Shown here: one piece after another, positions 11,604 through 45,809 of the stretch
How positions within the stretch are numbered: position 1 is the first letter of the stretch
Layout of the letters: each line of letters starts with the position of its first letter
Source of the DNA: Sclerodactyla briareus
Lineage: Eukaryota; Echinodermata; Holothuroidea; Dendrochirotida; Sclerodactylidae
Length of the DNA: 64,000 bases
Direction: 5' to 3'
NCBI GenBank assembly: GCA_026419785.1
Contig: JAODTK010005789.1
Coordinates: 496,001-560,000 of the forward strand
Program-made: the position numbers and the translations under genes
The notes under the pieces: generated by a model
The model's input: the letters and a program-made list of their open reading frames with translations, nothing else
Database searches by the model: none
What the model was told of the DNA's origin: nothing

Positions 11604-11652
11604 CCTTCATATATAGAAGGTTGTAATAGCGGGGGTTACACTTCATACTTAC

Positions 11653-11949
11653 CGCAGTCAGATGACCGAGGAACACAGAAAGACCGATAGCTAGAGGACC
11701 CGAACCACCAGGGCTGGGACGCTTGGAGTCGACGGTCGAGAGATAGTCAGAACAAGCTGGAATGTGATCACGGTTTCGACGATCAGGCCCTGGAAGGTAC
11801 TGATGTTAGAGCTCACGACTGTGGGGCCGAGCGCTCCGTTGAATTCCAGCGGGGTCACCGCTCTTACCAAGGCCGTTCCCAGGGTCGCGTCCCAGCCAAC
11901 TGCGCCGCCACGTACAAGATGAACCGCAGGAAGGTAATCCTGTGCATAA
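11653..11949 (-). CDS. Aquaporin, middle exon (helices 3 to 5)
   Basis: Second recognisable aquaporin exon. On the minus strand it follows a TTTTTTTCATTCGCAG-type acceptor (AG at 11951-11950) and ends at a GTAAGT donor (11652-11647), phase 0 after GHLTA. Its first two bases complete the codon left open by the 40872 exon (G+TT). Peptide landmarks in order are FLRFILYVAAQLAG (helix 3), a loop with GPTVVSSN, VETVITFQLVL (helix 4) and DSKRPSPGGSGPLAIGLSV followed by FLGHLTA (loop D and helix 5). This is the normal order in the family. Two frame changes are needed: at the GGG run 11891-11893, where one G appears missing, and near 11740-11750. The next exon should carry the second NPA box (NPARS); I searched 1-11650 by eye and did not find it, so it may lie outside the window. 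An hAT-like element ends only about 50 bp inside the downstream intron. Confidence 0.88.
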
Positions 11950-11953
11950 CTGC

Positions 11954-14903
11954 GAATGAAAAAAAGGTGGAACAGGTTTTTCAGCGCACATCAGGTTCTT
12001 CAGTGTGTTCGCCGCGTCTCATAACAGAGCGGAGACCACATACGCCCCCTCCATCCGAGGGGAAATGATGGTCTACTTCAGTTCACTCTTCAACCTCTCA
12101 TACTTACAAAATGCCTCCCTCTATTTAGCCTATTAGTCCATCCTGCTAATCGACCTCTCCCAATCTGGTCATCCATCGTCCTCATCTATCGCTAAACCAT
12201 TAGTGCTTCACAGTTGCATCTTGCCAAGTTATAAATATTTGAACGATTTTGACACTAAGAAGTGTCCTACCGACTGATGTCATGGCAGTTGTAGATAATT
12301 GTGCCCCTGGACCCCCCCCCCCCCCCCCACCTACCGCGGGACAGGTCATGAAAAGAAAGACGATATCCATATCTATTATGGAATAACATGGACAATTTCG
12401 CAGTGAACTTGTATAGTAGTAGTAGTAGTAGGTGAGTACTCGTCTATTCGACTTGCTCAGTGATCAATTTCCGCCACGTATCACGATCGATCTTGCGCAA
12501 GGTTTATTGCTTCCTCGAAACTGTTATTGTTGATGTCCCTTAATTGCGATTTGATTTTTTCCGAGCAAAGTTGTCACAGGTTCTCCCAACTGGCTTAGTA
12601 GTAATGTTTCAATGCTTCTCTCAGAGCGATCTTCGCTGGAGCTTCATCTAGGAGTCTCGCGACGTGACTAGTACATCAAACTAGTCACGTCTAGTCACGT
12701 AACTTGTATCAAAGGTTATATTGATAACGAGTCAAAGGACGCACTACTGAGGAGCGCTATCATTGGTTACACACCCTCAGCTCAAGTGCGTTCTTCTGTT
12801 GCGTCCGTTAAATACAACTGATGAGTGAAGGCCGATAGTTGGCCAGTTGGGAGGTTTTCTTTTTCTTACAGTTCTAGTCAGGAATATCGCTCGAGGCATA
12901 TAGTGTGCTGTACAAGTAAGTATCCTCCATTGTGAATTCCCATGCCAATAAGCCTCTTCGTGGTAACAAATAATGAGATTATAATTCTATTGTGTTAAAG
13001 ATCAAAGGGCACACTGGCAGTTCGACACTGGACGAACAGTGTGCAAAACAATCACTCGAAACTCCCCTGATGGAAACTACAGAGCCGAAACTTCACAGAT
13101 TCACCCCATATACTCATCACCAGAAACATCCGGACATATGAAGTGAATCTCGTCTGTACCCCCGAGCTGCTTAGTGGTGAGCATGGCGCACTTACAACCT
13201 TGGAAAAAGTCATTAGTTAGAGGGGATCTCACTGGTTGTGTAATTCACTATGAGTTGTTTGTAACTTTGCAATGCTCATCTGGTGATACTCTCCACAAGT
13301 CACCGAGCTCAAAGGTAGCTTGGGTAGTTTGGTACACGAATCCAACACTATACTGTGGATGGACAAGGCGATGTCTTCTAGTGTGTCTCACGATATACTC
13401 GATATAACACTGACCTATAATAATAATAATCTTAACTAATTTGTTGAAAGACGATCACCCCCCCCATGAACCGCAGGTCAATAGTGAAACTGACCACATA
13501 CCTTGAAAACCCAATCCCAACAGTGGGAGAGAATACGTCTAGACTGATTAATCTCAAAATTGATGTCATCTCCATATTCATACTGGCAAACATTTACCCT
13601 TGTCAAAATTGATAAATGAGTAAAGAAATATGTGACCACCCAAATGACGACTGGAAGATTCTACGTCATAAAACTGAATGAGTGATGGGCGTTGACAGCA
13701 TGAATGTAGAGATTGCATTGCATATAAGCAAATTTCACTTTACTTTCATCAATGATTCATGCAAAGAGAATATTTTTACATTTTTCATATTTACCTACTC
13801 TTTTCATGCTCGCCGTATTTCAGGAGAGTGCTTTGTGACAATTCATTCACAAATATGAGTCTAACTGATCATTGCAAACACCTAACTGTCAGACTGTTGT
13901 CGACATAGGTCGATTATTGTAAGTAATAATAGATTCCACTTCGACCGTGTTTGCTATCGACGGTTCCTATTCCGGTTGTTTATTACTTGACTTGTTTCCT
14001 ATCCGAGAGAGATAATACTGAATACGAAGCTGTCTTTGCCCAGAGGTATAGCCGGCTTCTGGCAGTGGCATTGATACTTATATGTAGACAGGGTGAGTAG
14101 TAAAATCGATCTCTCATCGACCACCTATTTGATTTCACAAATCAGCTGGCTGCTAATAACGTCGGAGACCGTGTTAATTAACGGGCGCAAACCGTGAAAA
14201 ACACACTTCTGACAGCCTGACACAACCGATCCGGGAAACACATTTCGTTTCATCAAGGAATCAATGTATGTACGTATGTGTTTGTACGTATGCGTGTGCG
14301 TTAAACTGGAAACATGAAACAACGAAGAACAAGAACCAAAACATTCGCATCAGTTTGATCCATTCCATCATCGCTCGTCAGCAGTTAGCCATACGTATTA
14401 TTTACATGTATCATTGTGCTGACAATAACAGGATCAGCCCACTGGGATCAGTGGTACTTGGAACAAGAACAGGGTACACTCGGAGAACGTAACATATGTC
14501 GACTCCCCCTATTGTGCCATATAGTCCTTATATCACGTTAAATGTTCTAAGTAACGTAGTAACGATTGAATAACGTCCATATGTGTCTATCGTTACTGGT
14601 AGCAACGTTTCCGACGTTGCTACAAGTTTTTTTTACCCTATTTTTTCACGCCTCTTTTTCGGAGTCCACATTTCACATTCTCTGAACTCGATATGGGCGA
14701 AACGTTTTCGCAACGTCATTTGCCGAGCAGTCCAGCTCTGGTGCTCCGCTTCGAAGATATTTCCTGATCAGCTAGTGGTATTGTATTGTATGGTATGATC
14801 ATATTCTTAGTTAGGGTTGAGGAATAGACCCAATGGATAAAGTTAGTGTAAGGCAACAACAAAATTCTTCTTTTGAGGTCAGTGCGCAGGATTGTCTGTA
14901 ACA
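11954..14903. other. Unassigned intronic sequence
   Basis: No exon recognised. Contains a C tract at 12310-12328, a TAG triplet run at 12416-12432 and the palindrome listed at 12662-12700. ORFs are short and unconvincing. Confidence 0.4.
12662..12700. repeat. Small palindrome plus direct copy
   Basis: ACGTGACTAGT (12662-12672) and ACTAGTCACGT (12680-12690) form an 11-bp stem with a 7-nt loop. A further CTAGTCACGT copy follows at 12691-12700. Confidence 0.6.
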
Positions 14904-16210
14904 ATTGAACGTGAATCCATACCCTAGCCTACATCTCTAATAATGAATACAAACAACCAATCAGGACAGACGTAAATCTACTCATACTGAACGTGAATCC
15001 ATGCCCTAACCTTTATCTCTAATAATGAGTACAAACAACCAATCAGGACAGACGTAAATCTACTCATATTGAACGTGAATCCATACCCTAGCCTATATCT
15101 CTGATAACGGACGTGAAATCTACTCATAGTGAACGTGATTCCATGCACTAGCCTTTATCTCTTATAAGGAGTACAAACAGCCAATCAGGACAGACGTAAA
15201 TCTACTCATACTGAACGTGAATCCATACCCTAGCCTACATCTCTGATAACGGACGTGAAATCTACTCATACTGAACGTGAATCCATACCCTAGCCTATAT
15301 CTCTAATAATGAGTACAAACAACCAATCAGGACGGACGTAAATCTACTCATATTGAACGTGAATCCATGCCCTAACCTTTATCTCTAATAATGAGTACAA
15401 ACAACCATTCAGGACGGACGTAAATCTACTCATATTGAACGTGAATTCATACCCTAGCCTGTATCTCTAATAATGAGTACAAACAACCAATCAGGTCAGA
15501 CGTGAAATCTACTCATATTGAACGTGAATCCATACCCTAGCCTATATCTCTAATAACGGACGTGGAATCTACTCATACTGAACGTGAATCCATACCCTAG
15601 CCTATATCTCTAATAATGAGTACAAACAACCAATCAGGACGGACGTGAAATCTACTCATACTGAACGTGAATCCATACCCTAGCCTACATCTCTAATAAT
15701 GAGTACAAACAACCATCAGGTCGACGTGAAATCTACTCATACTGAACGTGAATCCATACCCTAGCCTATATCTCTAATAACGGACGTGGAATCTACTCAT
15801 ACTGAACGTGAATCCATACACTAGCCTTTATCTCTTATAAGGAGTACAAACAACCAATCAGACGGACGTAAATCTACTCATACTGAACGTGAATCCATAC
15901 CCTAGCCTATATCTCTAATAATGAATACAAACAACCAATCAGGACGGACGTAAATCTACTCATATTGAACGTGAATCCATACCCTAGCCTATATCTCTAA
16001 TAATGAGTACAAACAACCAATCAGGACGGACGTGAAATCTACTCATATTGAACGTGAATCCATACCCTAGCCTATATCTCTAATAATGAGTACAAACAAC
16101 CAATCAGGTCAGACGTGAAATCTACTCATATTGAACGTGAATCCATACCCTAGCCTACATCTCTAATAATGAGAACAAACAACCAATCGGGACGGACGTG
16201 AAATCTACTC
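14904..16210 (+). repeat. Satellite array, 17 units of 83 or 60 bp
   Basis: Seventeen tandem units each begin CTGAACGTGAATCCAT and continue CCCTAGCCTATATCTC. Long units (~83 bp) then carry TAATGAGTACAAACAACCAA before GGACGTGAAATCTACTCAT. Short units (~60 bp, near 15068, 15210, 15519 and 15741) lack a 23-bp block and read TAACGGACGTG. Two short units (15068, 15741) are each followed by a unit with the variant CTTATAAGGAGTAC, suggesting a higher-order duplication of about 670 bp. No ORF. Confidence 0.93.
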
Positions 16211-17299
16211 GTGAGTCGGTGTTTCCTTCGGGTACTTTGGTTGTCTGTCTGTTCGTACGCGTAGAAGATTGTAGGCTCATGAGGAAGAATTTAATCAAGT
16301 GTTATGCGAAGATGAGCATGTCGGGTAATTTGGTTAGGCTCCATTGTCATTGATTGACGACATACACTACGGCCTTGCGTTTAACCACGGTAACCTAGTA
16401 ACGAAATTACGTCTCAACAGTTGTCTCATGCTATATAGTCAGTCCCCTGACAACCCAATAGCGGACTTTCACGCAGCAGATTTCGGATTTGCCACCACTG
16501 CAACCCTGTTGGATGTGTAGAACATATTATGGCATTTTGACACGCCGACATGCTTTTCGTCAGCCCTTACTATAATGGCTATAGCGCTAGTCGGGAAAGA
16601 TCGCAAATGAGAGCCGCGGAAAGTCACTCAAATTGCCTCAGAGTTTGACTGCCATGCGGTAAAAAGCTAGCCTACAAGAAAGAGTGATTCTCGCTGGGTT
16701 AAGATACAACACATGCGCAAAATTAGTTCCGCTTTCAAGCTGGCTTTTTGCGTTAATGATGTACCGACACAGGCCCGTCCATCGACAGTCCCAAGTGAAC
16801 ATAAATTCATTTTATATTACTTTGCTGGTGGCGTCAGCGAAAACAAAAAGAGCGGGCGATCGACGAGGGAACTATCCCCCAGCCTCGGATCCAGTGCAAT
16901 GCAGGTCGCAAATCCTTCATACAAGATTTTATTCCCTCAATTGATGAGAAAATGGACTGACGTTCTCAAAATAGAGCGACGGAGAAACTGCGTGACACTT
17001 CACTCTATCAAATCAAGTTTTACCATGAACAAAATCAATCAGCGGTGCAAGTAGACCTAGTCACCTGGTAGAAGTGTCCTGCCTGCCCTCGAGCAGTAGC
17101 GCTGCTGTTTATCCGATTAGTGATGCCGGGAACTTCTTCCGTTAATCACTAGGATGGCTGTCTCGTTTGTCATCCTATTCATGGGGCATCTCAGAATCTG
17201 TGAGACCCTGGGATATTCAGGAAGAATACCTGAGGAAAGGCATCTATCAACATCTATCTAAGGCAGTGCCTGGGTACTGGAAGGGCAGATCCATGGACA
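16211..17299. other. Unassigned sequence
   Basis: Two overlapping open frames (16684-16944 and 16713-17054) exist but neither is recognisable. No RNA gene or clear repeat seen. Confidence 0.35.
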
Positions 17300-17640
17300 T
17301 GGTAGTACATTTGCAAAGATATGTTCCGCCCTGCCGGTACTAGAGGGAGGCCGTCTCATTTCGCTACTACCTATGGAGATGTCTCAAGTACAGAGTGTAT
17401 TCCATGTGGCGCCTTTTACTACATAGGTGGGTTCAAGTCAACACTGACTGCCTATCAACTCCGATGTGACATGCTGTCTTCTCGCATTGAAGATTCGAGC
17501 GCAGCAACTCTGCCTACTCATGCCGTTCATGTTTATCCAAAGTGGTAAAACTACCCAATATGTTCGTCCGATGTGTTTATCCAAGGTGGTAAAACTGCCC
17601 AATATGTTCGTGTTGTTTCCTCTTTGAACATCGTTACCTC
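17300..17640 (+). pseudogene. Possible decayed GCC2/GCC3-like cysteine-rich repeat
   Basis: The frame at 17321-17548 reads PAGTRGRPSHFATTYGDVSS, then TECIPCGAFYYIGG, and later RCDM and SSAAT. This spacing recalls ephrin-receptor-like GCC2/GCC3 repeats (CPAGT..C.PC.AGYYC..G), with several cysteines replaced or shifted out of frame. Downstream, a ~43-bp segment (FIQSGKTTQYV then FIQGGKTAQYV) is tandemly duplicated at 17531-17615. It lies on the strand opposite the aquaporin. It could be a degraded exon, a captured fragment or coincidence; no splice sites were fixed. Confidence 0.25.
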
Positions 17641-17752
17641 GGATCTCCTACCATGGTGGGGATGTTCCCATGAATACTTTAATGCTCACATCACTATCAG
17701 CTCTCTCATTTCCCTCATGCCACTAATGTTATTCCTACCTCACCAACTGCAG

Positions 17753-18330
17753 AACCCTTCACTGAATCTGAAGGGTTCCTGGCATGCGCTGGATCTGCGT
17801 CTGACTACTCACCCTTTACCGGGAGCCGTTAGCTTTAAAAAACCTCTTGCGTTTTCCGTGTTCTCGAAGAGGTCGTAATGGGATTCTTTGGAGTAACAAC
17901 CCTTATACTTACCGTATGAATGTGTTTACCTTCATGTTCACAGGGGGTAAGCCGAGAGTCAGGATTCCACATCTTCACCAGCGGAATTGTTCAGGTTCCG
18001 CGAGGGAGTGACTCTGAGTAAGACTGTTTGAGGATGCTGGGAATCGTCAAAGTTCGACGTATCAACTGCTGCTTTCCCGGTTTCCACATTATGACCTACA
18101 GCGCGTGCCAAGGTCGGGCCCTTGTTGAACTAACCGAGGAAATGTGCCCAGTGGCAAAGCCCTCTCCACGTTCGAATTCACACGGGTACGTGATTATCGT
18201 GATATTGGAAAATATAGTTACGATTTGAGCCTTCGGTATGAACCGACGTTAGGTGAAGGGTTCCTGACATGCGCCTGGCTACTCACCCTTTACCGGGCGC
18301 CGTTAACTTTAACCTCTTGCGTCATTCTAT
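17753..18330 (+). repeat. Local duplication and partial copy of the 3.2-kb block
   Basis: TGAAGGGTTCCTGGCATGCG with CTACTCACCCTTTACCGGG occurs at about 17768-17850 and again at 18255-18325. Between them, 17880-18240 matches 21085-21430 of duplication copy A (CTTACCGTATGAATGTGTT, GACAGCGCGTGCCAAGGTCG). Confidence 0.65.
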
Positions 18331-18349
18331 TATTCGGATGTTGATAGTT

Positions 18350-18937
18350 AATGATTTGTAAAATCGCCACTCGCTGGTATAACGAGGTGCATGTTAGAAA
18401 TTACTTTTTTTTCCCCATCTACCGGGGGATTTCTCCTTCATCCTGGTCATTAAGTAGCCTTTTAAATTATTCATTAGGCCCATATGCAATACATTTTTCA
18501 TTCTTTTATTTTCCGGTGATGTAAGGGAACCGATAAACCGCGTGGCATAATTGAGACATCCGTAACAGAAAAGTTGGCCCCAAACAGCCATGTTTGCTGG
18601 ACAAAAATAATTCCAGTAAATAAACTATTAACTACCTCAATACCAAGTGTTACTGCGTTTCAATTGATTACGTCACGGGTTGGGAAAGGCCGCCCGTAGA
18701 CTGTTCACAGTAAATGCTGCAATTATGAAGACGGAGCGTGGTGGTATTCACAACGATGATTCTCCGCTAAACAGTTAAACCTTTATCATTTATTTGTTGC
18801 AAGGTTTCGAAGCTCGGTTCGAGGTTCGGCATTGACTTTGTATTAGAATAGTTCCCGTGGTTCCGTATTTTGCGTTTGTAAATTGTACCGTGATAATTGC
18901 ACACTCGTATCGACTGGAATTTGATTCCTTTCAAATA
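18350..18937. other. Unassigned sequence
   Basis: Nothing recognisable; AT-rich, short ORFs only. Confidence 0.4.
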
Positions 18938-21900
18938 AAAATTGGTAGTAACAAAAGTCAAATAGACTCATGACATGACTATTGGATTTTAAATGTGTGT
19001 CTTTTAAGCAGACGCGCAATTCCCTTTGCATAAGGAGTTGGGAGCAGTCCACTTACGCGGGGCCTCTTTATGTCTTTATGTGGATACGATTTCTCTCAAA
19101 GGATAGGTCAAGAGCTTCCAGCGAACGCTCGGATGGCGGGAAAGCGATATTTCGAATACCCTGTTAATTCAAATAGATTAAAACGAGCATACAGTATATA
19201 CACTGACTGTAACCGGTCACATACGGTCGATGACCCCCTTGTGTTTAATCGTGAGGCAGTAATAATATTAAAAACACAAAACTAGCTCGTATGTCCAAGC
19301 CTACATAGCGATGTGGCGAGCTTGTTTTTTACTCACCCGGCGTTCATTATGTATTCAATGTCATTAGCGGCGAGTGTATCTGCGACAGGGTATACTGAAC
19401 ATTTGAGGCAGCTTTGGACGAGGGGACTGCGGGAATAGATCTGAGCAGGGAAATAGAGTAGCATTTCGCTGATTTGGGTGAAAAGTTATTAGACATAAAC
19501 ACTTAACACGCGATGTCTATATTCACATTTTCCTTCCGCGTGGTCGTCTCTCATATTATATAGGCTGAGGTGGTACCCGTTAAATGTTGTCATGAGTCAA
19601 CAATTGGAGGCGCCGTCCTAGTATCGGGTTTTTATCGTGTTTGCTTGGGTTAAGATCTGTTTTAGAGAACATATTGGCAGACGGGTGTGTGTTTATCGTA
19701 GAATATAAATGTATCTATTTTTGTACACAGGAGATCGCCAATAAGCACGTCTGACACGTCTTCAGCGTTTGAAAAACACATTACGTATAAAACCAAAATC
19801 CAGCGTAAAATGAAAGTAAAATTACAGTTCGGTAGGCGTTAATTAGTTGTTGATTTTCCGTCATTTAGGCAAAGAGGAAGAGGTTTATTGAGCAGTAACG
19901 TTGATTTTCTCAATCTACACAGGTTGACTATACTGCGATGGAGTGTAGGAGTGGAGAGCCTCTAACGGGAGTCCACAAAGTTCCACGTTAATCGGTGGTG
20001 GAGCTTGTTGCTTGTTTCAATGAACTTTACTTCAGAGCCAAAGGATGACTGGGTGTTATGAACGTTCCATTTTACCGTCGAGGTTCTCGTTTCGTAGAGT
20101 ATACAAAAGTCTAATTGCTAACCCACAATGAAAATTCTTAGCTCTCTGCAACCCGACCATTGTTTATAATGTGTTTTTCTCCACATTCGTATCCCAATTC
20201 AAAGCACAGCTATTACTCGGCCAGATTAATATGTTGGGTTCGCATCAGAGAGAATCGTAAATTGCTGGAGCTAATCCCGAGGCTTTCCGTGTTATTGTAA
20301 GTCGATCCCATCCGTAGAACCCCGTGGCCCAATTTGCATGTTATCTTTATAACCTAATTGGAAATATGTCAATGTTTACTGGTGAATGAACTGGCAAAAT
20401 GAACCGGATATATCTATCGTGTTTCAGCTTTGACATATGCATAAACTGAATTCCGCAACATTTTATTACCTAAACACGCCTCTGAGGCTAATAAGAATAC
20501 ATTTCATGTCACGATTCCATACATTCCGATTCGGTATCAGCTGGGTGCGATGCCGTTCAATTCAATCCAGTTATCAAAACGCAAATGGATCTCCGATGTG
20601 TATACTGGCATTCTCAAGAGAATACCACGCGCGTCGATTGACAACAGTCGAATACAAGGCATAGTAGCGCCTTAGGGGAATTCGCTACATATCGTTCAGC
20701 CTTGATGAGGATCTTCTTTCAGCCCCTCGAGTTGATGGTAACCAGCTAAGAACTTATGAACAGGGATGCTATTCTACCCAAGCAAGATCCCCGCTCAGAA
20801 CCCGCTTTTATTATGCACTAGTCTCTACTCCCTCGGGCCTCCTGGAAACCTATGCAGGGAAAGATTGCCACGGCTCCGCTGACGACTGTTTTTCCTCCGA
20901 TGCGATCGGATTTACTGAGTGTGTTGAGAAGAAGCTTATAAAATCGTTCGAGGCGTGATGCGTAGAGTGGAGGCTCTCAGCCGTCTTCTCGGGTTCGGGT
21001 GACTGACTCCGGTTGATGCTGGAATCAATTAGTGTTTGTTTGTGTCCTCGAAGATGACATAGTGGGATTTTTTTGTGGAGAAACAACCCTTAAACTTACC
21101 GTATGAATGTGTTCACCGTCATGTTCACAGGGGGTAAGCAGAGAGCCCGGCATCCACCCTTCAACCAGCGAATAGTTGAGTCCGCGAGCGAGTAAAGCTG
21201 ACGATTTGAGGCTCTGGAATAGTAACAGTTTCGACTTTTTCGACCGGTTTTCGGATTACATTACATTATAGCCGACAGCGCGTGCCAAGGTCGTGCCCCT
21301 TGTTTGAACTAATCATGAATGGTGCCAAGTGGCAATGCCCTCTCCACTTCTAAATTTACATGGTTACTTGATCATCGGGATATTGGCAAATATAGTTACG
21401 ATTTGAAAGCCTTCGTTATACCGGTCTAAATCAGCACCATGATAAATGAGATCCTGATATTTCGATATGCAAATTTGTGTTTTGAGACCATGCGCAATAC
21501 AATGCGCTCAACTCAATGAATCACAGAGCAACAATTAGGAGCAGCAATGCTACATTATCCACGTATTTAATCGATCAGACGATTTCGTCAGCTTCGTTCT
21601 GGTGGCCCGTACTCCCGTTCGGTGGCTGTCGACTGGTCATCGTATCGGCAATAGGTTATGTTTCAATACCTTTGAAGATTCTCTTTAGTTCATAGTTTGG
21701 GATTTTTGTTTTCTGCTGTCCGTAACAATACAGGTCGTAGCATCACCACGGTGATTCCAGCATATCAAACCCTGCAAGATGGGTGTTGCCAACTCAACCA
21801 CAACTTGACACAAACGACCCAATCAACCTGCAATATTTACTAAACCGCAAAAGATTGCCTTGGTTATGCTTTTGACCAAGGTCAAAAAGGTATCTGCGGG

Positions 21901-22117
21901 CGAGTGAAGTAAATACTGAAATGACCTGGTAAGTAAGGTGTTTCTTGAAGAGAGAAGGTAAAGTTACGATTCATACCCAGTTAGGTCCAACGTTTTCCAT
22001 TCAGAGCTGTGTCAGTGTGGAAAGTACCAGCGAACGTAACACTGAGTCGGCAGACTGCAGGCAAGGCTAAAAGTTTTATTAAATGAGCCCACATATTTTA
22101 GAAATGTCCCTCACAGG
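18938..22117 (+). repeat. 3.2-kb tandem duplication, copy A
   Basis: Begins AAATTGGTAGTAACAAAAGT and ends near AAATGAGCCCACATATTTTA. Collinear over its full length with 22214-25545. No conserved long ORF survives in both copies, so I see no evidence that it is coding. Parts recur at 17880-18240 and, diverged and interrupted, at 31140-33485. The unit may be an unclassified mobile element or a segmental duplication. Confidence 0.85.
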
Positions 22118-22135
22118 AATATATATATATAATTA

Positions 22136-22194
<59 letters not shown>

Positions 22195-22196
22195 GA
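22118..22196. repeat. (AT)n tract with short inverted flanks
   Basis: About 75 bp of alternating AT between the two duplication copies. ACAGGAAT on the left and GATTCCTGT on the right form an inverted pair, so the tract can fold as one hairpin. Confidence 0.85.
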
Positions 22197-22213
22197 TTCC
22201 TGTCAAAAATACT

Positions 22214-25200: not shown

Positions 25201-25545
25201 ACCTGACAAGAAGTGTGTTGCCACTCAAAAACCAAAAAGAATTGATCACAAAACGACCAATCACTGCACTATTACTAACCGCAAGAGATGCCTTGTTGCT
25301 TTGACAAAGGTCGAAAAAAGTTCTCTGAGGGCAATTGAAGTAAAATACTGAAAAGTGAAACCTGGGTAGTAAAGTGTATCTTGATAGAGAGAAGGGCTAA
25401 AGTTACGATTCAAACCAGTGAGGTCCAACGTTTCCATTCAGTGTGGGAAGACTAGCGACCGTACCACGGAGTACGGCAGACTGCAGGCAAGGCTAAAATT
25501 TATTAAATGAGCCCAATTAATTAGAAATGTCTCAACATGGGATAT
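22214..25545 (+). repeat. 3.2-kb tandem duplication, copy B
   Basis: Collinear with copy A from AAATTGGTAGTAACAAAAGT to the terminal AAATGAGCCCAATT. Differences are mostly 1-4 nt insertions and deletions scattered along the length, with fewer clean substitutions. This is the pattern of uncorrected long-read error or a misassembled second haplotype as much as true divergence. Confidence 0.85.
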
Positions 25546-27610: not shown

Positions 27611-27649
27611 ATATGCTTGTTCTCACTATGTACAAGAATCGTGCAGAAT

Positions 27650-28470: not shown

Positions 28471-28639
28471 AAAAGAAGAGCGCGAAAAATCACGGGGAAT
28501 GCCTATATCGCCTTTCTAGTTGCAACGATAATCTTTCCTGTGGAAAATGATGATGAAGTACACTAGATTTTTATCAACATTCTTCTTACGACGAGCTTTC
28601 AAAGGGCTTATAGTACAGTATTGATTGCCATTCTACTCC

Positions 28640-30785
28640 TATAACCAGTGTCTGAATCACAGCAAGAAATGCGAGGGAAAATCACTGCCGTTAAAATAAA
28701 GAAGGAATATGTTTAGCCATCAAAAAGACGGTATGGAGGTCAGCTTGCATTGATTTGCACCTTGGCATTTAGCTGTGGTTGTGTTATGATCTGACTGGAA
28801 TTTAGGTTTATTCATTAAAACTTGTATATTCGCGATCTATCAGGATCTCTATCGAATTTTGATGCACAAGAGGCGATATATGTAACCAAGCAGCCACTAC
28901 ATGTTACCGGGGGCGTCGCTAGAGGGGTTAGGGGAGGGGTTGTTGTGGGGGTGTAGGGGTGTGACCCCCCCCCCCATTCACAGGGGAAGTCTGCAAAATG
29001 AAGGAAAATGCAAGTTAAAAAGAGGTTATTAGCAAACGAGAGACAGCTTTAGGAAGGAAAAGCGAACCCTTTTATAGTTAACCCTTACCATGTTCCATAT
29101 ATTTCTGGCTCAAAATGGACTGGGAGCCATCTCCAGCAATCTATTGTAGTATAGAACCAAACTTGTGTGCCTAGTCGGGGCAATATGAAGAACAAATGTA
29201 AGTAGAAAGAAAGGAAAACGAACTTTGCGCCCCCAGTCGGCAAATGGAGAAACAAATGAAAAGAGGGATAGTGTGACCCCGGAGGCGGTAAAGATGTTGA
29301 AGGAGAGGGATGGTTGTGAAAGAAGAGCAAAACGTAAGCTTGTACATTCAACCCTTACGAAGTCCGGCTGGCAATAGTGGGTTTAGAAAACTACAAGTTC
29401 TCCTAGTCTGGCAAATTGAAACGCAATAGGCTAAGGAGAACAAGACGGGTTTCGAAACAGTGAAAGTGAAAACTTAACATTCAACTCTCAGAATACCTGG
29501 GTGAAAATGGTCTGGGAGGCCATGTCCGGCAATCTGTGGCAGTATCAGTAAGTATATATAGGACGCGAATTTTGTGCCCACGTCGGCAAATGGAGAAACT
29601 CTCTTGAAATGATGGCAAATGAAATATACCAATTAGAATGGGGAATTTCAGTTGAGGCAGGACACCTGTGAGGAAAGATCAGTCAATTGAGGCAAAACAT
29701 CCAGTCACTGTGTAATCTCAGCAGTGGAAAATCATCTGAAGTCTGGTTCCGTCTAGTCTAAGAGTATTCTACACTGAGTTGGTCTAAGCCGACTGATATA
29801 AAATGCTGGGACTGAAAAAAGTCAGTGTTACCATTTGGAAGAGTGAAAATTGGGAGGGCACGGTAGGTAAGAGAGGTTAAAATGGTTGGCAATCTATGGG
29901 GCATAGAAATTTCACAGTGCCATGCCAGCTTAATAAAACACTTGGGAAGGGGCCGTTCCTTGCATCGGGGGGCTTACGAAACCAAAATTTTCTGGGGACG
30001 CTTCCGACCCAACCAAAGGTGGCGCCCGCTGGGATAGTACCACTCCCATTCAGACTCAACTGATATGCCACCCATCTAGTGACAAGAAGAAGAAGAGACG
30101 ACTACTTTAGATGGCAGCTGTGAGCTAACGTACGTACAAGCTAGGTAGATCTAAGGGTACCTTGATCAAAACTTCTTAGCTCTGCCTCTGCGCCATCAGC
30201 CGTGTGGCACGGCCTCATGATCAACAACCAGACTACTACTGTGGTTACAGACACTGTTGGGAAAAAACCAATTTGTGACGCTTTCCCTCTATATATGAAC
30301 GCGGGGTTAGTCGGCAAACTCAGCTGGTAGTCGGCACCCAAAAACTCAGGCATGGAGTCGCAAAAATAGGAGGGGTCACCCCCCAAAAGGATGGTCTGGC
30401 GACGACCGCATTTACATCAAACTTATCCATATATTAGAAGGGCGGACCCTATTCTATGGCCTCCTTGATTATCTTTGTCCAGAGGCGATTCATCATCTGT
30501 AGTTTCGTCTTCCTATTTTCGTGGGGGCGTTCTTTGCGAGGGTTTATGATAATACCTGATTTTATCGCAAGAATGTCCTCAGACGAAGGTCATCGGCCCT
30601 GAAGACATGCATATTTATTGGCAGTTAATGCAAGAGTCTCAACTTCAATAATTAAGAAGATGTTAGGTGCTTAAGACGGTCGAGAGGGTCGTTGAACTGG
30701 GGATGTTATTTCTGCCTGATGCAATCGGTTTTATTCATTCTAGCATAAGTCAACTTCCGCGTAACTCTGTATGTTATACTGGGAC
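28640..30785 (+). repeat. Paralogous segment D1, split by a transposon
   Basis: 28640-28907 and 30416-30785 match 33525-33785 and 33786-34155 in the same order and orientation. Shared landmarks are TAACCA..CTACATGTTAC, ATATTAGAAGGGCGGA, CTTTGCGAGGGTT and CATGCATATTTATTGGCAGTT. The middle part is the inserted element at 28908-30408. Confidence 0.8.
28908..30408. mobile_element. 1.5-kb hAT-like insertion with preserved empty site
   Basis: The left end CGGGGGCGTCGCTAGAGG and the right end, CGGTCGTCGCCAGACC on the other strand, form imperfect TIRs. Flanks are CATGTTAC (28900-28907) and CATTTAC (30409-30415), a one-base-deleted copy. The paralogous site near 33775-33782 holds a single CATGTTAC followed by the same right flank, so the boundaries are fixed by comparison. 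The interior has a ~400-bp diverged direct repeat (29088 and 29488) and no recognisable transposase. Confidence 0.82.
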
Positions 30786-31139
30786 ATTACATATATTTGG
30801 GCTATCGGGCTTGCATGTAGAAGGTACCGCCCCAAAGAGGCATTGCCATAATCAGGTTGTAACTATATGCAGTGTGGGGATTGTACTCGGTGGCCGGCCC
30901 AATTCTATGGTTGGTGCCGGGAAGGAAAAAGATGGGCTATAATGAAGCCCAACGCGAAAAAAAGAGAGTACAGAAAATGGTGACTGAAGAGGCTGTGGAA
31001 ATTGGAGCCCACCCCTTCGGGAGCCATAGCACTGAAGGAGGAATTGATGAATAGAGTCTACTGAGCACTCCAATCAAAAAGGGGAATGCCTCGGGCCCAG
31101 TAAGGGTGGGACACTGAAAGTATCTAATCAACATTAGTT
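30786..31139. other. Unassigned sequence
   Basis: Several overlapping ORFs of 60-91 codons on both strands, none recognised. Confidence 0.35.
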
Positions 31140-33485
31140 AATTTATGGGGTAGCTATAGTGCAATGTATAGGAAATGTAGAGTCTCTCACGGAAGTAACA
31201 TGAAGTTCATGTTATCAAGTAGGGGAGCCTATTTGCTTATTTAAATACTCGATCCACGACAGCGAACACAACGACCGAACACGCGTTGTTCATGACAGGG
31301 GAAAATCTACTGCATTTCTGGATCCAACACATGTCATGCAGCTGGTTGGTTGAAAATCTACTATTTTGGTGATATGACAGTTCGGCTGAATTTTTTTTAC
31401 CCCAGGGATCTATAACGACATGTTGCTTTCGGGAAGACCAAATGTTATCTTCGTCTACCTAGTTGGTAAAGACTCTGGCGAACTCAAAAAAAATCATAAC
31501 TTAACCCCGGTGACCAAAATAGACTCCATCCTTTCGTACCAGACGCCATCTGATTTATCAAATTAATGGAATTCGTCGAAAATAGAGAAATCGTCTTAGC
31601 ACAGTCGCTCGTTTCAGGGAACCTCCACCATTAACTTATAGGGACCAAACGTGAAGTCAAGCTCCACCAAGTTATCGTTAACACCATACGAAACTGAGGC
31701 ATCGCACCATTCATGCAAGCTCAATCTCTGACAACCTTGGTGATTAAATGTGGTCCTCTCTCCACCAAGTCGTTAAATACGATAAACTTTTAAAACCGCT
31801 GAAAGATTCACTAACAGTTTATAGGTGCTTAATTTATGCACGAGGAATTGCCCACCATGCCTACGTATACAATCACTCACAAATGGACAAAAGATATGGA
31901 AAAGTTGTGGTATGGTCCGTACATCAATGGAACTAAACCTATCTATACATCTGAGCCAGTACGGTCGCATGGTCGGTTACCGTTTAAATCGCTCACAGCA
32001 ACATACTCGCGCGGCTCGCACAATTATACACCCATACACCGCAAGCACGCACTACGGGCAAGAACGTCCTGGACAAACTACGGTTGCTTACGTGTGTTCA
32101 ATGAGTTACATGGGGATAACTATTAGTCCGAATCTGTTCCAATGGACTTCAGAGCCAGAGGATGCCTGAGTGTTACGAACGTTCCATTGCACCGCCGAGG
32201 TTAATGAACCTGTCTTGAAGGAAAATCCGAAGAGGAGGTTCGTATCGTAGGGTATGCAGTCTTATTGCTAACCGCATGCTGAAATTTATCAGCTCCCTGC
32301 AGACCCAATTAATAATTTTAAAGTGTTTTCTTCTTCACTGTTGAATCCCAATTCAAAGAACAGCTATTAATTCGGCCGGATACGGATTATATATGTCGAG
32401 TTTTACCACCGCGCTCAGATATTATGTGCTAGGGTCGCAATTAGAGGGAGTCGTGAATTGCTGGAGCTAATCCTGAGGCTTTTCGTATCATTGTAAGTCG
32501 ATCCCATCTGTGGCACTCCGTCGCCCATCTGCATGTTATCTGTATGACTAAATAATTCTGTCATAGTTTATACTTATATAAATATGTCATGGTTTATGGG
32601 GATGACTACAAGAAAAACCGGAAGATATCCGTTGCAGCTTGCCACATCAAGCGTAAGAGGAGAACAATTCCTCAAACATATACTAAACGCCTCGGAGGCT
32701 AGCGTAAGAGATGTCACGATTCATATTCAGATTACGATCAGCTGTGTGCGTGCCGTTCAATCAAATCCGTGTAACAAAACGCAAATGGATATCTGAGGTG
32801 TTCTGGCATTCTCAAGGGAATATCACGCAAGACGATGGGAAAACAACACCAGGGGCAACATGAGCGCCTTGGGGAAAATTCGCTCTAACAGACTTGATAG
32901 GCATGATGAGGATCTCCTTCAGCCTTTCGCCCTGAGTTGATGGTAAACAACGAAGAACTTATGACACACAGGAAAATTCTCTCCTACCCAAGCAAGAGCC
33001 CCGCTCAAGAGCCCGTATTTATTATTATGATGCACTACTTCCCCCGCTGAAACACCTATGCGTGAAGAAATTGCCACAAGTTCTCGCCGACGACGTGTTT
33101 TCCAGGGTGATCAGAGTTACTGATCAGTGTGTGGAGAAGACGCTGAATAAATAGTTTTGAGGCGTGATGCGTAGAGGTGGGGGCTTTCAGCTCGTATTCG
33201 GTATTCGGGGTTACTGGTGACTCACCGTTGATGTTGGAATCTACTTAGTTGTTTGTGTCCTCGAAGAGGAATCCAGGGGATTATTTGAGGAGAAACAACC
33301 GTATACCTACGTATGGAATGTGTTTACATTTGCTCTTCACAGGAGTAGGCCGAGAGCCAGGATTCCACGGTTACACGGTAGGATGATCATGGATACTGGC
33401 AAATAATTAACGATTTGAAGCCTCGGTCTGGAACCGAAGTGAGGGTCTATCAGGACCCTGATAAATGAGGTGGTACTGATATATG
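31140..33485 (+). repeat. Diverged copy C of the 3.2-kb block, with ~0.9-kb insert
   Basis: 31140-31242 and 32135-33485 follow the same order as copy A from about 19940 to 21450 (ACTTCAGAGCC, GTTACGAACGTTCC, AGCAAGAGCCCCGCTCA, AAACAACC). The ~0.9-kb segment 31243-32134 has no counterpart in A or B. It carries ORFs of 96 and 114 codons (31836-32126 and 31825-32169) that I do not recognise, and its ends show no clear TSD. Confidence 0.65.
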
Positions 33486-33524
33486 TCGACAAGTCCATAT
33501 TATACTACAGTTCCATTCCAGTCC

Positions 33525-34155
33525 TAAACAGTGACTGAATTTTCAAGAAGGAGAAAAATAACTGCCAGATGAAATAGGATAAGGGAAATATGTTTAGTCT
33601 ATCGAATTGCGGTATACGGGCTTCCCATGGTTTCTCCTTGGCCAGTTGGATAGAGTTGTTTGCTGCGATTATGAGTTGGCTGTAATTCACGGTTTATTTC
33701 AGGTTGGACTTCGTATACCGCGATCTTTTCAAATTTGATTCACTGAGAGGCGCTAGGTAACCACATCAACTACATGTTACATGATCCTATCCAAATATTA
33801 GAAGGGCGGAACCATTCTATGGCATCCTTGATTATCTTTGTCCTGAGGCAATTTATCCTCTGACGTTATATTTTTCTTCGTCCTACATTTCGTGGGGCGA
33901 CTTCTTTGCGAGGGTTCAAGTTGATAAAATCCTTAAATCATCGCATGAATGTCCTCGGAGGAGGTCATTGGCACTGAGGCCATGCATATTCATTGGCAGT
34001 TCATGCGAAACGAAAGTTCTCAACTTCATAATTGAGCAGATGTTAGGGGCATACAGCGGTTGGGAGGGGCAGTTGACACTAGGGAGGTCATTTCTGCTTG
34101 AGAATGGTATTCATTTCTAGCATAAGTCAGCTTTGGTTCTGTCTGTATACTTTGA
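33525..34155 (+). repeat. Paralogous segment D2 (empty-site copy)
   Basis: Collinear with D1 but lacking the 28908-30408 insertion: CTACATGTTAC runs directly into ATGATCCTATCCAAATATTA. It directly follows copy C of the 3.2-kb block. Confidence 0.8.
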
Positions 34156-34284
34156 ACTGTACCCCAGATTGTGTGGGTGTGATGTATGTGTGTGGGTTTG
34201 CGCCATTGTGTGTGTGTGCGTGTGTGTGTGCGTGGTGGTACAGGCCACTACGTCGAGAAGCAACACCATGAAGGACTGTAATAA

Positions 34285-34560
34285 TAACCGAACGGGTTGG
34301 CACATTTGGTGAGCGTCAGCCTTCCACCCAGGAAACTGGGTTCGAAAACTCTGGTCGGAAGTCATTCAAAGAAGTCAAAAAGTGGATTAACCCTATACCT
34401 GTTCCTTATCGCTGGGCGATCAGCACGAGGGATTGGAGCAGGACAAAAAGAGGAGCTATATGCAATTTGCAGTGACGTCTGCCACCACCACCATTAAAGT
34501 ACCGCCGAAGAAACAAATAGTGTAGCATCCAGGTCTGCGCCCTTGTCGAGCCTTGGGCAC
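34285..34560 (+). mobile_element. tRNA-headed SINE
   Basis: The head resembles a tRNA: GGCACATTTGGTGAGCGTCA (A-box region) and ACTGGGTTCGAAAAC (B-box region) at near-tRNA spacing, as an RNA polymerase III promoter would need. The body contains GCGATCAGCACGAGGGATTG, TTAAAGTACCGCC and CATCCAGGTCTGC. The same head-body order recurs on the minus strand at 63170-63455, and the body again at 63810-64000. A (GT)n tract (34195-34235) precedes it. Confidence 0.72.
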
Positions 34561-35279
34561 CTCCTCTGCTCGGCAAGTATATCATTTAACGAAAAAATAT
34601 TAAACATGGTATTTATGTAATGAGGAGAATGATCGATCTAATGGGAGGCGGTTTAGTCGCTATTGCACCAGTGCGGCAGAGTAGTTAGTAGTCGTTGATA
34701 GCTAGAATTGAGACGTACATGACGGGAGGAGGCGGAAAATGATAATCATTGGAAGATTCCTCCTATCTAGCGCAAAAAGTGGAAGGACCTGTACCATATT
34801 AAGGTATAGTTAGTGACTTTTTTTGGGGGCGAGGAGGGGGGGGGGGGAAGCAAGATGGAGTTTTGTTGTTGATGGTTATCTAACCTACCATAAAACATGC
34901 GTTAGTTCATGTTAATGATTCCTAAACTTTTAGAAATGAAGTGTGACTACTACTTAATATATAAACAATCATCGATTTAGATAAAAAAAATCGCCTTCTG
35001 CCTTTTCCATTATGCGCAGTCAATGTGTAATTAACATAGTATATATGAAGGGGATACTAATGAAAATACTACTGAAAATACTACTGGGAAATACTTTCGA
35101 GTATACATTTCCTCGTTATATTTATTTACTGGGAACTAGACACATACAGCCATGAGGTGGGTACCTTCTTATCGCACAGCAACCCAGTTAACTTGAATCG
35201 CACAAAGTGTTTTTTTTTTATATTTCCCATTTTCCTAGAATTAATCTGATCTCTCAAAACGAAACAACTGCAGTTTTTT
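34561..35279. other. Unassigned AT-rich sequence
   Basis: A T8-G5 / G10 mixed tract at 34818-34850; no ORF of note. Confidence 0.4.
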
Positions 35280-36975
35280 CAATTAGAAAACTCTTCAACA
35301 AATGCCAATCTGGTCAGACTTGATCGGGTTCAGAACGTTCCTTGACTCATTTCTTTCAACCTATGTTCAGAGCCAAGGACTAATGGCAACTATACATGTC
35401 GACAATTGCCCATTTTTCACAGATCGAGCAAAGGGTCCTTTCAACTTAATCAGATCAAGCATTCCGAACTTCAAATTGTTACAAGTATTTTCCAACCTCG
35501 ACCTCTTTACCTCCTCTCACTCTCACCTGACCCCAACAAAATAATGGCGCTCATTAGTAATCATAGTAAACACACCACTTCACATCCGTCTAGGTGGGGG
35601 GTCAAGTTATTATGTTTACAAGCTGAAATTTGCCAAATACTACTCTCATCACAACTGGACAACAAAATACACGGACACCTCTTTGCTCTTTTAAGCAAGT
35701 CCACACCTCAAATCCCAACTGGATCAGAACCAAGCGGATTCTCGTTTCAAGTTCACAAGGGTTTTTTGTCTTGGCCTGCAGTGACCTCAGGTGGCCTCGA
35801 CCTGACCCCAAACCAATAGGTTTCGTGTGCTCATCATGGTGGGAGCACACGAAATCTGAGCTTCAGCCATCTAGATGGGGTCCTGTTCACAAGTTGAATT
35901 TTTGCCACATATTGCTTTTCCCCATTCTCTATTCCGACCAAAAAAAGACCCTGATCTGCTTGAAAAAACAAACAATCGGGTTCTTGTACGAAGTACACAC
36001 TAAATTTCACTTGAATCGTCATTTGTCCTCATCATGGGGAACATACATACCACGTATGAGCTCCATTCATTGATAGGGGTTCAGTTATCATGTTTACGAG
36101 CCCAATTTAGGCAAAAAAAATATTTTTCACAAAATTGACATTTTTGTCAAAAAATGTCCCGATCTACACCAAACACAATAGGTGAAAAACAGTACCTGTA
36201 CTCTCCATAGGTAACTATACACAAAAAACGTGATCGGACCAACCATTCTGGACTTAACGTACGTGTTTACAATGTTGTCAGACATTGACCTCTGGTGACC
36301 TCAGATGACTCTGCCTGACGAGACAATGGGTTTAATGTTTACTCATCATGCGGATCCACACATACAATATGGTTGATCTTCCAGGTGGAGGTCTAGTTAT
36401 CGTGTTTACCAGCTGGGCGTCACACACCTACATTCACGCACAAACGCGCACACACACTGTCATGACTGCACAGGGATCGAAATAAGGGATCAGCGCCAGG
36501 AGTTACTTTTTTAACAAAAGATCCCCTGGTTTCATGGAATTGCTGGCATGGGAACCAGGAGTTAGTTTTGTAGGACCAGGGGCTCTGCTCACTTTCTCGA
36601 CCTCTCTTGAGGCTGACCAGGGATTCAAATGAGAAATCAACCACAGAGGCTATACACCTAGCTCACAGCACCGTGCGTACTAAGCATACACTGAAGTTTC
36701 AGTCTGCCAAACAAAACATTAAAATAATGCTTGCTGCAGCTATCAGTTAGTCCTACCCAAATGTGACGCAATGGAGCCCTCAGGGGCTATGTAGGGGGCG
36801 GCATAACCCCATGGGCTATTCGCCCCCCTAAAATAGCCCCGGTTCATACAATTTCATTGGGACCTGGGTTATTTATGAAATTTAGAGGGGGCTAATAGCC
36901 CCGGGCCCCTGGTTATCATGAGCCCTGTGACTGCATAGATTCCTCTGACTTGGTCAGAGAATATAAAAAAGATAA
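35280..36975 (+). repeat. R1 array interrupted by an hAT MITE
   Basis: R1 units (CCAACAAAATAATGG, TCTAGGTGGGGGTCAAGTTA, GGGGAACATACATACCACGT) run to the (CA)n end at about 36452. The terminal motif TGTCATGACTGCATAGATTC is split by the element at 36471-36927 and resumes at 36928. The 80-147-codon frames here are repeat-derived. Confidence 0.7.
36471..36927. mobile_element. 457-bp hAT-like MITE nested in R1
   Basis: An exact 8-bp target duplication, TGACTGCA (36463-36470 and 36928-36935), interrupts the R1 terminal motif. Removing one copy and the element restores the motif seen at other R1 loci, which fixes the boundaries independently. The ends are CAGGGATC and, inverted, CAGGGCTC. The interior has inverted GGGGCTAT/ATAGCCCC blocks at 36782-36905 and no transposase. 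Confidence 0.88.
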
Positions 36976-37929
36976 TCCACATGCACTCATCTGGAGAACT
37001 CTCATGCCAGGAAATGACTGATATTCATCGGTTCTCTTGTTAACAAGCAGGCGTCACATGCGGTACAGACCCACATACTCTGACATGACTACAAAGATTC
37101 CGTCGAAGACATCGTATCACGACCCAGACATGTGCTGGCGTTGATCTTGTCATATACTTACCTATCAAAACTATATACTGAGCCATACATTACGTGCTGC
37201 GTGAGTAGACCTGAACAAGATCGCATTGGCCTGGTTAGAGTATCGTATACGCCATCTGCCTGGCTTTTTCTATCTCGTCTGTTTATAAAAACAATTCCTA
37301 TTTTTCATACGTCGTTAAAGGGTGAATTGTAGTGAAACAACCAGAACCACAAAACCGAATATGTTCGAGGTGATTACAATTCTGATAATCGAGGAGCCCG
37401 GGACTCGTAATCGTTGATAAATGAGAAGCCTGGACTCGCAATCGTTTGATAAATGAGATAGACGTGGTCCTGCTGACTTCCTAACTAGTCATTCAAACTG
37501 TTTGCACGTCCATAGTCCCCGATTTATTATAGGTGCGTTCACCTTATATTTCTCTTACTCGGCAGTCGACCGTAGTCCATACCTACCCGAGTGGTTGCGC
37601 AGTCCCGAAATGCGCAATAAACCAGGGACACAAACGCCCGGTGAATAGGAAGGTCTCCTGGTGTTACAAAGCCCAAAAAACCCACCACAGCTTATGTGCC
37701 GAGGCCCCGGGCATGGACCCGAGCGAGGATTTTTGCAAAATATATCCGAAATCCTTCCCAATTTTGGCTTTTGGCGTTATTGATTTCCTTGCCGAAGCAA
37801 AAGACAATCTATGTGTTGCGTAATGTGTGTGTGAAGTGTGTGTAAGTGTGTGTGTGGTGTGGCACCATTTGTCAACCGGTTTTCTAACGAACGCAAAACA
37901 GTTTAAAAAGTTCAATTAGGGTATGTGGA
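36976..37929. other. Mostly unassigned; R1 end fragment and short repeats
   Basis: 37040-37115 resembles the end of R1 (CAGGCGTCACA, TGACATGACTACAAAGATTC). A ~33-bp unit with GACTCGTAATCGTTGATAAA is duplicated at 37390-37462. A (GT)n-like run at 37825-37860. A 96-codon frame (37533-37823) is unrecognised. Confidence 0.4.
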
Positions 37930-38660
37930 CTGCTCATGTAGAGAGGAAGAACCGTTTTTTTGTGCCAGTTCAAGGTCATCCAGAGTCACGACAGGGGCAG
38001 AGTTCAAAAACCTTGTCACGATATCCAATGAAGGCAAGTATCTATGTGAGTATTCATATTAGGTATGTGGGCTTGCACATATGATGATTACCCTATTGTT
38101 TTTGTGTCAGGTCAAGTTCATCGAAAGTCACCATAGGACAATCCCTCTATATCTTGGCAACGAACATTTCAGACGTGGGTGTAATAGAAAGTGTTTCGTC
38201 AGAGGTGAACATACATCTTGCGACCTTGTGACGACCATACTCCTCTGTTGCAACAAACAATGAGTCAATTGCATTGACGTACTAAAACACTGCTACCACA
38301 CGCGATCTCCCTATGTCCTCCTTAAAAGGGTAAAACAGCAGCCGCTCTACAACACAGATAAATTGCAAATCTTTAATTCATCTTGGCAACAAAATATTTT
38401 AGGGTGTGGCGAGATATTGTTCGTCTGTGCAAACTTCGTCTGGCGGCCTAACTTTGACTTCTTTGCCTTTTCGACCTCATTTGACCTTGTGACCTTGGTG
38501 ACTTTCGATCGTCGGTGTTGCAACAAACCATAAGTCAACACTGACACTGACGTCTAAAACACTCTAGCATAAGCTACTCCTTTTTTATGTGTCCTCTGTA
38601 AGGGTGAAACAGCTTCAAACACTGATAAATGTTCATGTTCGACATTGAACTTTTTTTCGC
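37930..38660 (+). repeat. ~270-bp tandem repeat, TGACCTTG-rich
   Basis: Units near 38130 and 38385, with a partial third, share TTGGCAACxAA, TTCGTC, GACCTTGTGAC, GTTGCAACAAAC, CTAAAACACT and AAGGGTxAAACAGC. Related in style to the R2 array at 57.6-61.2 kb. Confidence 0.55.
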
Positions 38661-39589
38661 ACTGGACCATCTCAGAGGAATAGCGCAGGGAAGTCCTTTT
38701 CGTCTGTGTGGCTAGCAATGGACCCCCAACTTTTCACGTACCCACTCCATATATTGTTGGTATTGGATTGACATCATTAACTTTGTTCACTTTGTTTTAA
38801 CCTGGGTGAAATCAAGCTTTTTGAATAGCAACATATAATATCCAACGGTGTATTGTAATTGCGATCCACACAAACCCATATAACCAGCAAATGAAACCAC
38901 CCCTACCGTTCGGGAAAGTTGGATTATAACGCACAGGTATTCTTTGCATGTTTCAAGACCGAGAGAAGACGTGTCACTTCAAACTCAACTTGACAGCACA
39001 ATCTGAACGTGTCGGTGTTTGGGTAGTTAATTATTTATGCTACTTGCCTGCTTAGGATAAATATTCAGATTTCAGGTGATCTTGAAGTTTCTTTTTGTTA
39101 CATAATATTTGGCAAGAAAACACTAAACATAGTTGCTCTTGTCAGTTTCGTGGCGAGATAGCATTACTATCACGTGTTTGAATAATACATCTGCTGATCT
39201 TGTTTGACAAATTGCTGAATCAGGATAGGGAAACGCGAATCTCTTGGCGAACAGAAAACAGTTGAGTTATTCCCTTATAAGCACAGATGACCTTTGACTT
39301 CGAATAACTGAATGATCGCAGCAAATTTATCGGGTTTTTTTTTCCTCAGCACTATGGAAGTCAAGCTACTGACGTAACTGTCAATTTCCACCATTTTCTT
39401 CTCTACTTGAAAAATTAGTTGTTTTGCTCCTTTTACGGGAGCAACACACCAAATTCACCAAGCAATCTGTACTTGCGTGTTTTTGTGCCCATAAGGGTTT
39501 TAAATGTTAGCATCGGACAGTGAAAACAAAGTTGGTATGTTCATGAACAACACACATTAGCATGGTTTTCTCATTTCAGGCCTGGGCGA
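38661..39589. other. Unassigned AT-rich sequence
   Basis: No gene, repeat or RNA gene identified. Confidence 0.4.
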
Positions 39590-40660
39590 GGTATACTGTT
39601 TAAAAGCTCAAATTTTCCTCTTCTGTTTTGTTAGGTTTCCTGTACTCCCCATAATATAACTACACACGAAATTTCAACCGGCTTGGACCGAGCATCCTTG
39701 ATACAAATTTACATTTACAAGGTATCCTTACTGTTTACCACTCCTTAAATCTTAATCTCCGATGAACTTCCCCTGAACATCAAGAATACGATCCATGCAA
39801 TATTTTGGGATATGCATTATCAGGTATGGGCTTAGACCATTACAGGCCTGATCGCGGTAGAGCAAGCAGAGATTCTCATGGCGGTGGGGGGGGGGGGGGA
39901 CGGGTTGGGGGGAGGTCGGAACCAAGGAAAGTGCGCCCCATAAATGGCCCCACCTCCCTATTGGCAACAAGGTATTAACAAGTAGAGTTATTGATGAGTG
40001 GTGCGGCCTTCCTGAAGATGTGTTCTTTACTAAGAGTGGGATGGCATTCAAGAACAGCTGGTCATTTTCCAAGAATGTGGCGAATTTTTTGGCATCTGGG
40101 TTGTTCTTCTATTGTGGGATGTGTGCTCGGGGTTTATTATGAGGATTTCGTCCTTCCTGCCCTTTTCTCAACCTAAAAAAACCATTTTGACTCACATACA
40201 CCTACAACAAACGAGGTACGATTCGACTTGTTCAAGGTATAACCAGAAAGCCAAAAGTTCAGTGATTTTTACTCATTCTGATTTTCGAAAAAAAACTGAC
40301 AACATCTTGACAAAAACCATAGAGTTCAGTGTTCTTGATAGGAAGCTACACACTGAAATTACAACTCGAAACAGATGAAGCATCCTATACTACACATCCA
40401 CATAACACCTGACTCTCCATAGGAAAACTACACACAAAAGTTAACTTGTTCTGACATAGCACTCTGAAACCTATCATGTTACGAGATTTCAAACGTTTAC
40501 AATGACGTCAGATGACCACGACCTGACTAAATAAAAATAGGGTTTAGGTACTCATTATGGCGAATGCACATACCAAGGATGGTATGATCACATATTCGTG
40601 TTTACAAGACCGGCGGCACACACACACAAACACACACACACACATACAATACGGTACACT
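39590..40660 (+). repeat. R1 array with hAT-like flank
   Basis: R1 blocks surround a G tract and the GAGGTCGGAACC block (39885-39960) shared with the 10395-11603 element. It ends in imperfect (CA)n at 40618-40644. No terminal hairpin follows. Confidence 0.6.
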
Positions 40661-40871
40661 ACAGGCTGTGGAGCATCATCTGACTGATTTCTATGCAAGT
40701 ATTCGATCCAATAACGGTCAGCATAAGCTCTCTCAGTTTCGATTTATTGTAACTTAAGCAGGTGGAAAGGAAGGTTTGAAAGGGTAAACAATATTTTATA
40801 ATATGGATATCTTGAGTCCCCCTCCCCTGGTTCTGTTCTTTTCCCAATGAAATTATACGGGTTGGACTTAC

Positions 40872-41146
40872 CGAAAAGGGCCAAGAGACCCACCGCCGGA
40901 GGATTCAGCTGGCCTCCGCTCACATGAGCACAAGTGAACGAAGGTTGCTATGGCGATGCCGAACGCTAATGCAATTCGTTAATCATCCGTTGCATGCAAT
41001 CATCGGAAAAGCAGTGGTTGGGCCAAGACCCATGAACAAGAACAGGGTCATCCCAACGAACTCAGCTAGCACGGCCCTCCAGAATAAGAGTGATTGGAAG
41101 TCTCCTTCATCTGCTGCATTTAGGACGCCATTCTCAAAATGGTGCT
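40872..41146 (-). CDS. Aquaporin, exon with N-terminal helices and first NPA box
   Basis: Internal coding exon of an aquaporin (MIP family), a membrane channel for water and sometimes small solutes. Read on the minus strand it opens after a polypyrimidine/AG acceptor (AG at 41148-41147) and closes at a GTAAGT donor (40871-40866). The peptide contains the family signature FWRAVLAEFVG, the rest of helix 1 (MTLFLFMGLG), a helix-2 stretch RIALAFGIAIATFV, then HVSGGQLNPPAV, the first half-helix loop with the NPA box. Here the box reads NPPAV rather than NPAV, and the T-L-G that normally follows is shortened. Two single-base frame changes are needed, near 40979-40990 and near 40930-40938. Given indel noise elsewhere these are probably sequence errors, but a decayed copy cannot be excluded. 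The exon ends in phase 1, matching the exon at 11949-11653. The start codon must lie in an upstream exon (above 41146) that I could not find. Subfamily is not resolved; it resembles classical water channels more than aquaglyceroporins. Confidence 0.88.
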
Positions 41147-45780: not shown

Positions 45781-45809
45781 GTCACCCACCAAGGAATCAA
45801 TGAGCTTCA

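Follow-up and report, generated by a model that had tools for sequence, protein, structure and literature searches.

Repeat-driven growth of long introns is general in animals and plants. Classical animal aquaporins of the AQP1/AQP4 type (Pfam PF00230) and the gene described here have in common a second NPA box reading NPAR, a GHL motif ahead of the exon that carries this box (exon C below), and at least four coding exons. In the available portion of one source, aqp0, -1, -2, -5 and -6 are given four exons and aqp4 five, and zebrafish aquaporin introns are mostly shorter than 5 kb, the longest named there being 9.7 kb (PMC2829555). The present gene differs from the zebrafish genes so described in having introns of up to 29 kb. 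Average introns are put at 1.2 to 2.1 kb across three de novo gene sets of a sea star (available text of PMC10625585) and at 1.3 kb in a sea cucumber (available text of PMC5638244). A few actin introns in the genome studied here measure ~1-4 kb. Against this background, our 29-kb intron is long, yet of a known kind.

We analysed a 64-kb stretch of DNA (the window; contig C3032:496001-560000), free of N, from an assembly of 319 Mb in 3171 contigs. Searching this assembly for COX1 yielded no match. An earlier note on this DNA had described two successive aquaporin exons on the minus strand, and we found both where it had placed them (exons A and B, Table 1). The splice signals that it described can be read in the sequence: GTAAGT donors follow positions 40872 and 11653, at exons A and B respectively, and an acceptor CAG precedes position 11949. 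The junction is phase 1 on either side, again as described, with a single G closing exon A and TT ATG CAC opening exon B, and the interval reported as ~29 kb has a length of 28,922 bp. Intron A-B thus has the features of a spliceosomal intron, namely matching 1/1 phases, gtaagt to cag boundaries and a position common to a paralogue, in which the start of exon B was placed by eye. Plain splicing is the most likely reason why A and B lie so far apart. The intron falls just after the first NPA region, a position that we take to be earlier than that of the first intron in vertebrate AQP1.

Table 1. Features of the aquaporin locus. Positions refer to the window unless contig C3032 is named.
Feature	Position	Strand	Description
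Exon A	40872..41146	-	First aquaporin part, through the first NPA region; two frame changes; single genomic place
Exon B	11653..11949	-	Middle aquaporin part, with GHLTA at its end; acceptor in phase 1 and GTAAGT donor in phase 0; frame changed twice; single genomic place
Exon C	contig C3032 481242-481322	-	81 bp, INYTGASMNPARTFGSAVIGGVWDDQW; NPAR box; clean frame
Exon D	contig C3032 476275-476472	-	Last exon, to a stop; two frame changes
Intron A-B	11950..40871	-	28,922 bp; repeated share of 46% in the self-comparison of the window; 12 six-frame stretches free of Pfam domains at E 0.01
Intron B-C (part)	1..11652	-	26,330 bp as a whole; extends beyond the window as far as exon C
Satellite array	14906..16210		~1.3 kb; periods of ~60, 82, 142 and 224 bp
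Duplication copy 1	18923..22218	+	3.3-kb unit; terminates in an (AT)n tract
Duplication copy 2	22195..25645	+	Gap openings relative to copy 1, 300; mismatches, 190
Partial third copy	32146..33368	+	Middle of the unit; diverged, ~69% identical
Dispersed 340-bp repeat	21732..22071	+	Inside the duplication unit; second copy at 25163-25497; no Pfam match

No exon for the second NPA box was found inside the 64-kb window; it is located outside, as exon C. Exons C and D sit to the left of the window, beyond exon B on the minus strand, and A-B-C-D are collinear on one contig and one strand. The junction phases are 1/1 at A|B and 0/0 at both B|C and C|D. The last intron is the shortest of the three, at 4,769 bp, and the span from A to D is 60,872 bp. 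We looked for a 5' exon upstream of exon A and did not find one. Exon C contains the second NPA box followed by R (GASMNPARTFG) and is matched by AQP1 residues 182-211 at 1.0e-5. The stretch containing it scores 36 bits against the Pfam MIP profile, a match of which part is intron. An overlapping second copy at 481239-481451, suggested by a profile match reaching back to position 137, was considered and rejected; we read this stretch as exon C after intron-like sequence.

The identity of the interrupted exons rests on sequence and profile matches to PF00230. When open pieces of the exons were compared with the MIP profile, exon A gave 9.1e-4 (19.5 bits) and exon B 1.8e-4 (21.8 bits), each of them, scored alone, under the family cut-off of 25 bits. 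A further piece of exon B gave 0.25, and two of the five exon A and B peptides submitted had no match. The A+B peptide obtained by reading through the frame changes matches AQP1 residues 26-207 at 5.4e-32 with small gaps only, which bears out the claim that A and B encode successive parts of an aquaporin. Among 37 matches of this read-through peptide to solved structures, the best 26 are AQP1, 5, 4, 2 or 0, and an aquaglyceroporin ranks last at 7.5e-5. Its closest relatives therefore belong to the water-selective AQP1/4 group rather than to the aquaglyceroporins, as judged by comparison with solved structures. The first NPA box, in exon A, is in the right place and is disturbed, reading HVSGGQLNPPAVGLLALFG (NPP-AV) within a stretch that changes frame. 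We predict that the product is a putative AQP1/AQP4-type water channel and that it would transport water.

Searching the genome with the read-through peptide returned six matches. Four are exons A and B themselves, in two pieces each, and the other two (38% and 31% identical) lie on another contig, C2276. A search of the genome with the MIP profile at E 0.001 listed exon C and two stretches of C2276, and left exons A and B unlisted, showing that broken exons can escape that search. The gene on C2276 (L009) is a paralogue with the same exon order, intron positions and phases. At all three junctions its splice sites correspond to those of the gene in the window, with exon B taken to start at a point estimated by eye; its exon A terminates in phase 1, and its exon C opens with VNYTG and closes at W before the donor. 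It also shares the frame breaks, which affect three of its four exons (A, B and C), and its exon C measures 82 bp as against 81. Unlike the gene in the window, it is compact, spanning ~6 kb with introns of ~0.6, 3.8 and 0.8 kb, and it is 38% identical to the read-through peptide over exon B. A weak exon-A-like match (L037, C2276:126346-126561, E 0.007) lies ~22 kb from it, and perhaps marks a local aquaporin cluster.

We consider it very probable that A-B-C-D form one ordinary AQP1/AQP4-type gene with long, repeat-filled introns and with frame breaks that are errors of the assembly. It would be a single minus-strand gene of at least four coding exons over 61 kb. Splicing of its transcript in the order A-B-C-D would remove introns of 28.9, 26.3 and 4.8 kb and leave the message for a water channel. 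Its first intron would have been enlarged relative to that of the paralogue, with part of the added length coming from a satellite array, from short dispersed repeats and from duplication in tandem at the locus, and its exon frame breaks would reflect assembly indel errors rather than decay of the gene. The earlier note had offered, as one of its explanations, a single gene whose intron grew by repeats, and three observations agree with this: exons C and D follow in order, the paralogue has short introns at matching positions, and repeats are denser inside the intron than beside it. The other proposal, two partial copies brought together, is unlikely because exons A and B each occupy a single genomic place; they are also complementary and do not overlap. 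We give almost no credence to the idea that distinct aquaporin genes, or fragments of them, simply follow one another here. Aquaporins may cluster locally, as the exon-A-like match near the paralogue hints, but each of the four exons encodes a different part of the protein with no overlap, and a second copy of A or B was seen neither in the 104 kb of contig examined nor in the genome search.

If one ordinary gene is the correct reading, the apparent oddity of this locus becomes an ordinary long intron, and the two aquaporins a routine case of unequal intron growth between paralogues. More specifically, we propose, with confidence that stops a little short of even, that the gene is functional, that its two longest introns add up to more than 55 kb within a span ~10 times that of the paralogue, and that the first intron grew through tandem duplication and satellite sequence more than through coding transposons. 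The description of this intron as packed with repeats holds up: in a comparison of the window with itself, 46% of intron A-B is repeated, compared with 16% and 18% of its flanks. About half of this repeated share is due to the tandem duplication by itself, and the satellite that had been reported is present as an array (Table 1). Like other long introns grown by repeats, intron A-B is therefore richer in repeats than the DNA beside it; unlike them, it contains no coding transposon that we could find, its repeats being either tandem or devoid of a Pfam match. The several transposons claimed for the interval are thus unsupported at the protein level. No coding transposon or nested gene was detected among 12 six-frame intron stretches searched against Pfam, a search run without a positive control and one that frame-broken domains could escape; up to E 0.1, the sole listing in those stretches is DUF4903, at 0.093.

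Additional repeats occur both in and out of the gene. One family, at 871-1498, 10587-11476, 36019-36428 and 44109-45790, is at once tandem and dispersed and has recurring TGACCTCAG and TGACC words. A genome search with the duplication unit, with scoring limited to 40 of its 642 first-look candidates, matched only its 340-bp part outside the locus, 37 times; this dispersed repeat is possibly a SINE or MITE. At 25520-25650, an (AT)n tract lies between inverted arms (AGAAATGTCTC...GAGACATTTCT), forming a foldback-like element whose long right arm is missing at the end of copy 1 (22119-22194). Across the whole window, no structured RNA reached its gathering score and ARAGORN found no tRNA.

The duplication, which had been reported as 3.2 kb, is a tandem duplication of 3.3 kb and is the doubtful part of the intron. 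Between its two copies the ratio of gap openings to mismatches is 1.58 (300:190), although this ratio varies with scoring (301:187 and 340:142 under other settings, 252:266 with BLAST). Under equal scoring, 12 of 14 other repeat pairs fall at 0.28-0.91; the two exceptions are a pair of 108 columns, at 1.33, and a pair that is itself part of the duplication, at 1.20. The 340-bp repeat offers a second comparison, using the highest-scoring seven of its 37 matches on other contigs. Gap openings number 3 to 7 in pairs among L025, L026, L028 and L030 and 17 to 21 when L027 is one of the pair, and against the seven members the first copy in the window has 13 to 20 and the second 20 to 33. The level of indel noise is thus uneven across the assembly, with our locus one of the noisier sites among those compared.

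These features bear on whether the assembly itself created the long intron by joining exons A and B, from different places or alleles, within a repeat-rich interval. The indel-rich divergence of the duplication (300:190, or 252:266 with BLAST), the meeting of its copies in an (AT)n tract, and the excess of gap openings in both 340-bp copies over those among the cleaner members would all fit such a join. The exons themselves argue otherwise, being complementary, ordered and on the same strand from A to D, with A and B each in a single genomic place; a chance join would hardly produce this arrangement, and we regard it as very unlikely. There may be a misassembly inside intron A-B, where the duplication looks suspicious. 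We considered whether the duplication is one sequence read twice and rejected this, as the 340-bp copies differ by 25 mismatches over 313 aligned bases, within the range of 19-28 that separates them from the seven other members. That count leaves room for either a true duplication or two haplotypes, and we read the 3.3-kb repeat as a true tandem duplication, or as two haplotypes placed end to end, blurred by noise in the sequence. It may be partly an artefact and, given its low base quality, intron A-B may truly be ~3.3 kb shorter.

The earlier note does not mention that exons A, B and D change frame. Each does so twice, which gives six frame changes in 851 bp of coding sequence, those of exon D being deduced by comparison with AQP1. 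Because of them, neither exon A nor exon B is open as it stands. The assembled exons likewise lack an open reading frame throughout, as do the actin genes described below, so that a working aquaporin gene is something we infer rather than demonstrate. An unprocessed pseudogene would account for several features at once: a gene copied with its introns, then decaying by frameshifts while repeats filled those introns, should leave dense breaks, a disturbed first NPA box and long, repeat-rich introns, all of which we see. We nevertheless consider it improbable, since all three actin genes fetched and the other aquaporin are broken in like manner, the splice sites are undamaged, exon C has a clean frame, and between breaks the peptide is still well conserved.

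The actin genes served as a control for the quality of the assembly. Three intron-bearing genes were fetched, covering 12 of the 16 actin matches (the other four are C2792:288580 and three on C2088), and all three change frame, with at least four breaks in L019, one in L020 and at least three in L021. In alignments to human actin, identity is 83.7% or higher for 13 of 17 actin pieces; the four with lower values (50-80%) include some that extend over a splice site or frame change. Speaking against assembly error, 14 of the 16 actin matches are stop-free within the match itself, L020 breaks a single time, and L021 could be a real pseudogene. The unexamined or unassembled sequence may also contain an actin gene that is intact. 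A search for Cpn60/TCP1 gave a weak control, with four weak matches of which three hold stops and one lies above the family cut-off. With breaks in every actin gene fetched, assembly error is the simpler reading, and the frame breaks in exons A, B and D are probably indel errors of the assembly. The locus then appears to be a routine aquaporin gene within an error-rich assembly. Pseudogene calls made from this assembly look unsafe, and claims of gene loss or decay need accurate reads first. Actin, aquaporin and weak Cpn60/TCP1 matches with frame changes or stops are spread over contigs C1260, C2792 and C2276 and, more weakly, C2009, C219 and C304.
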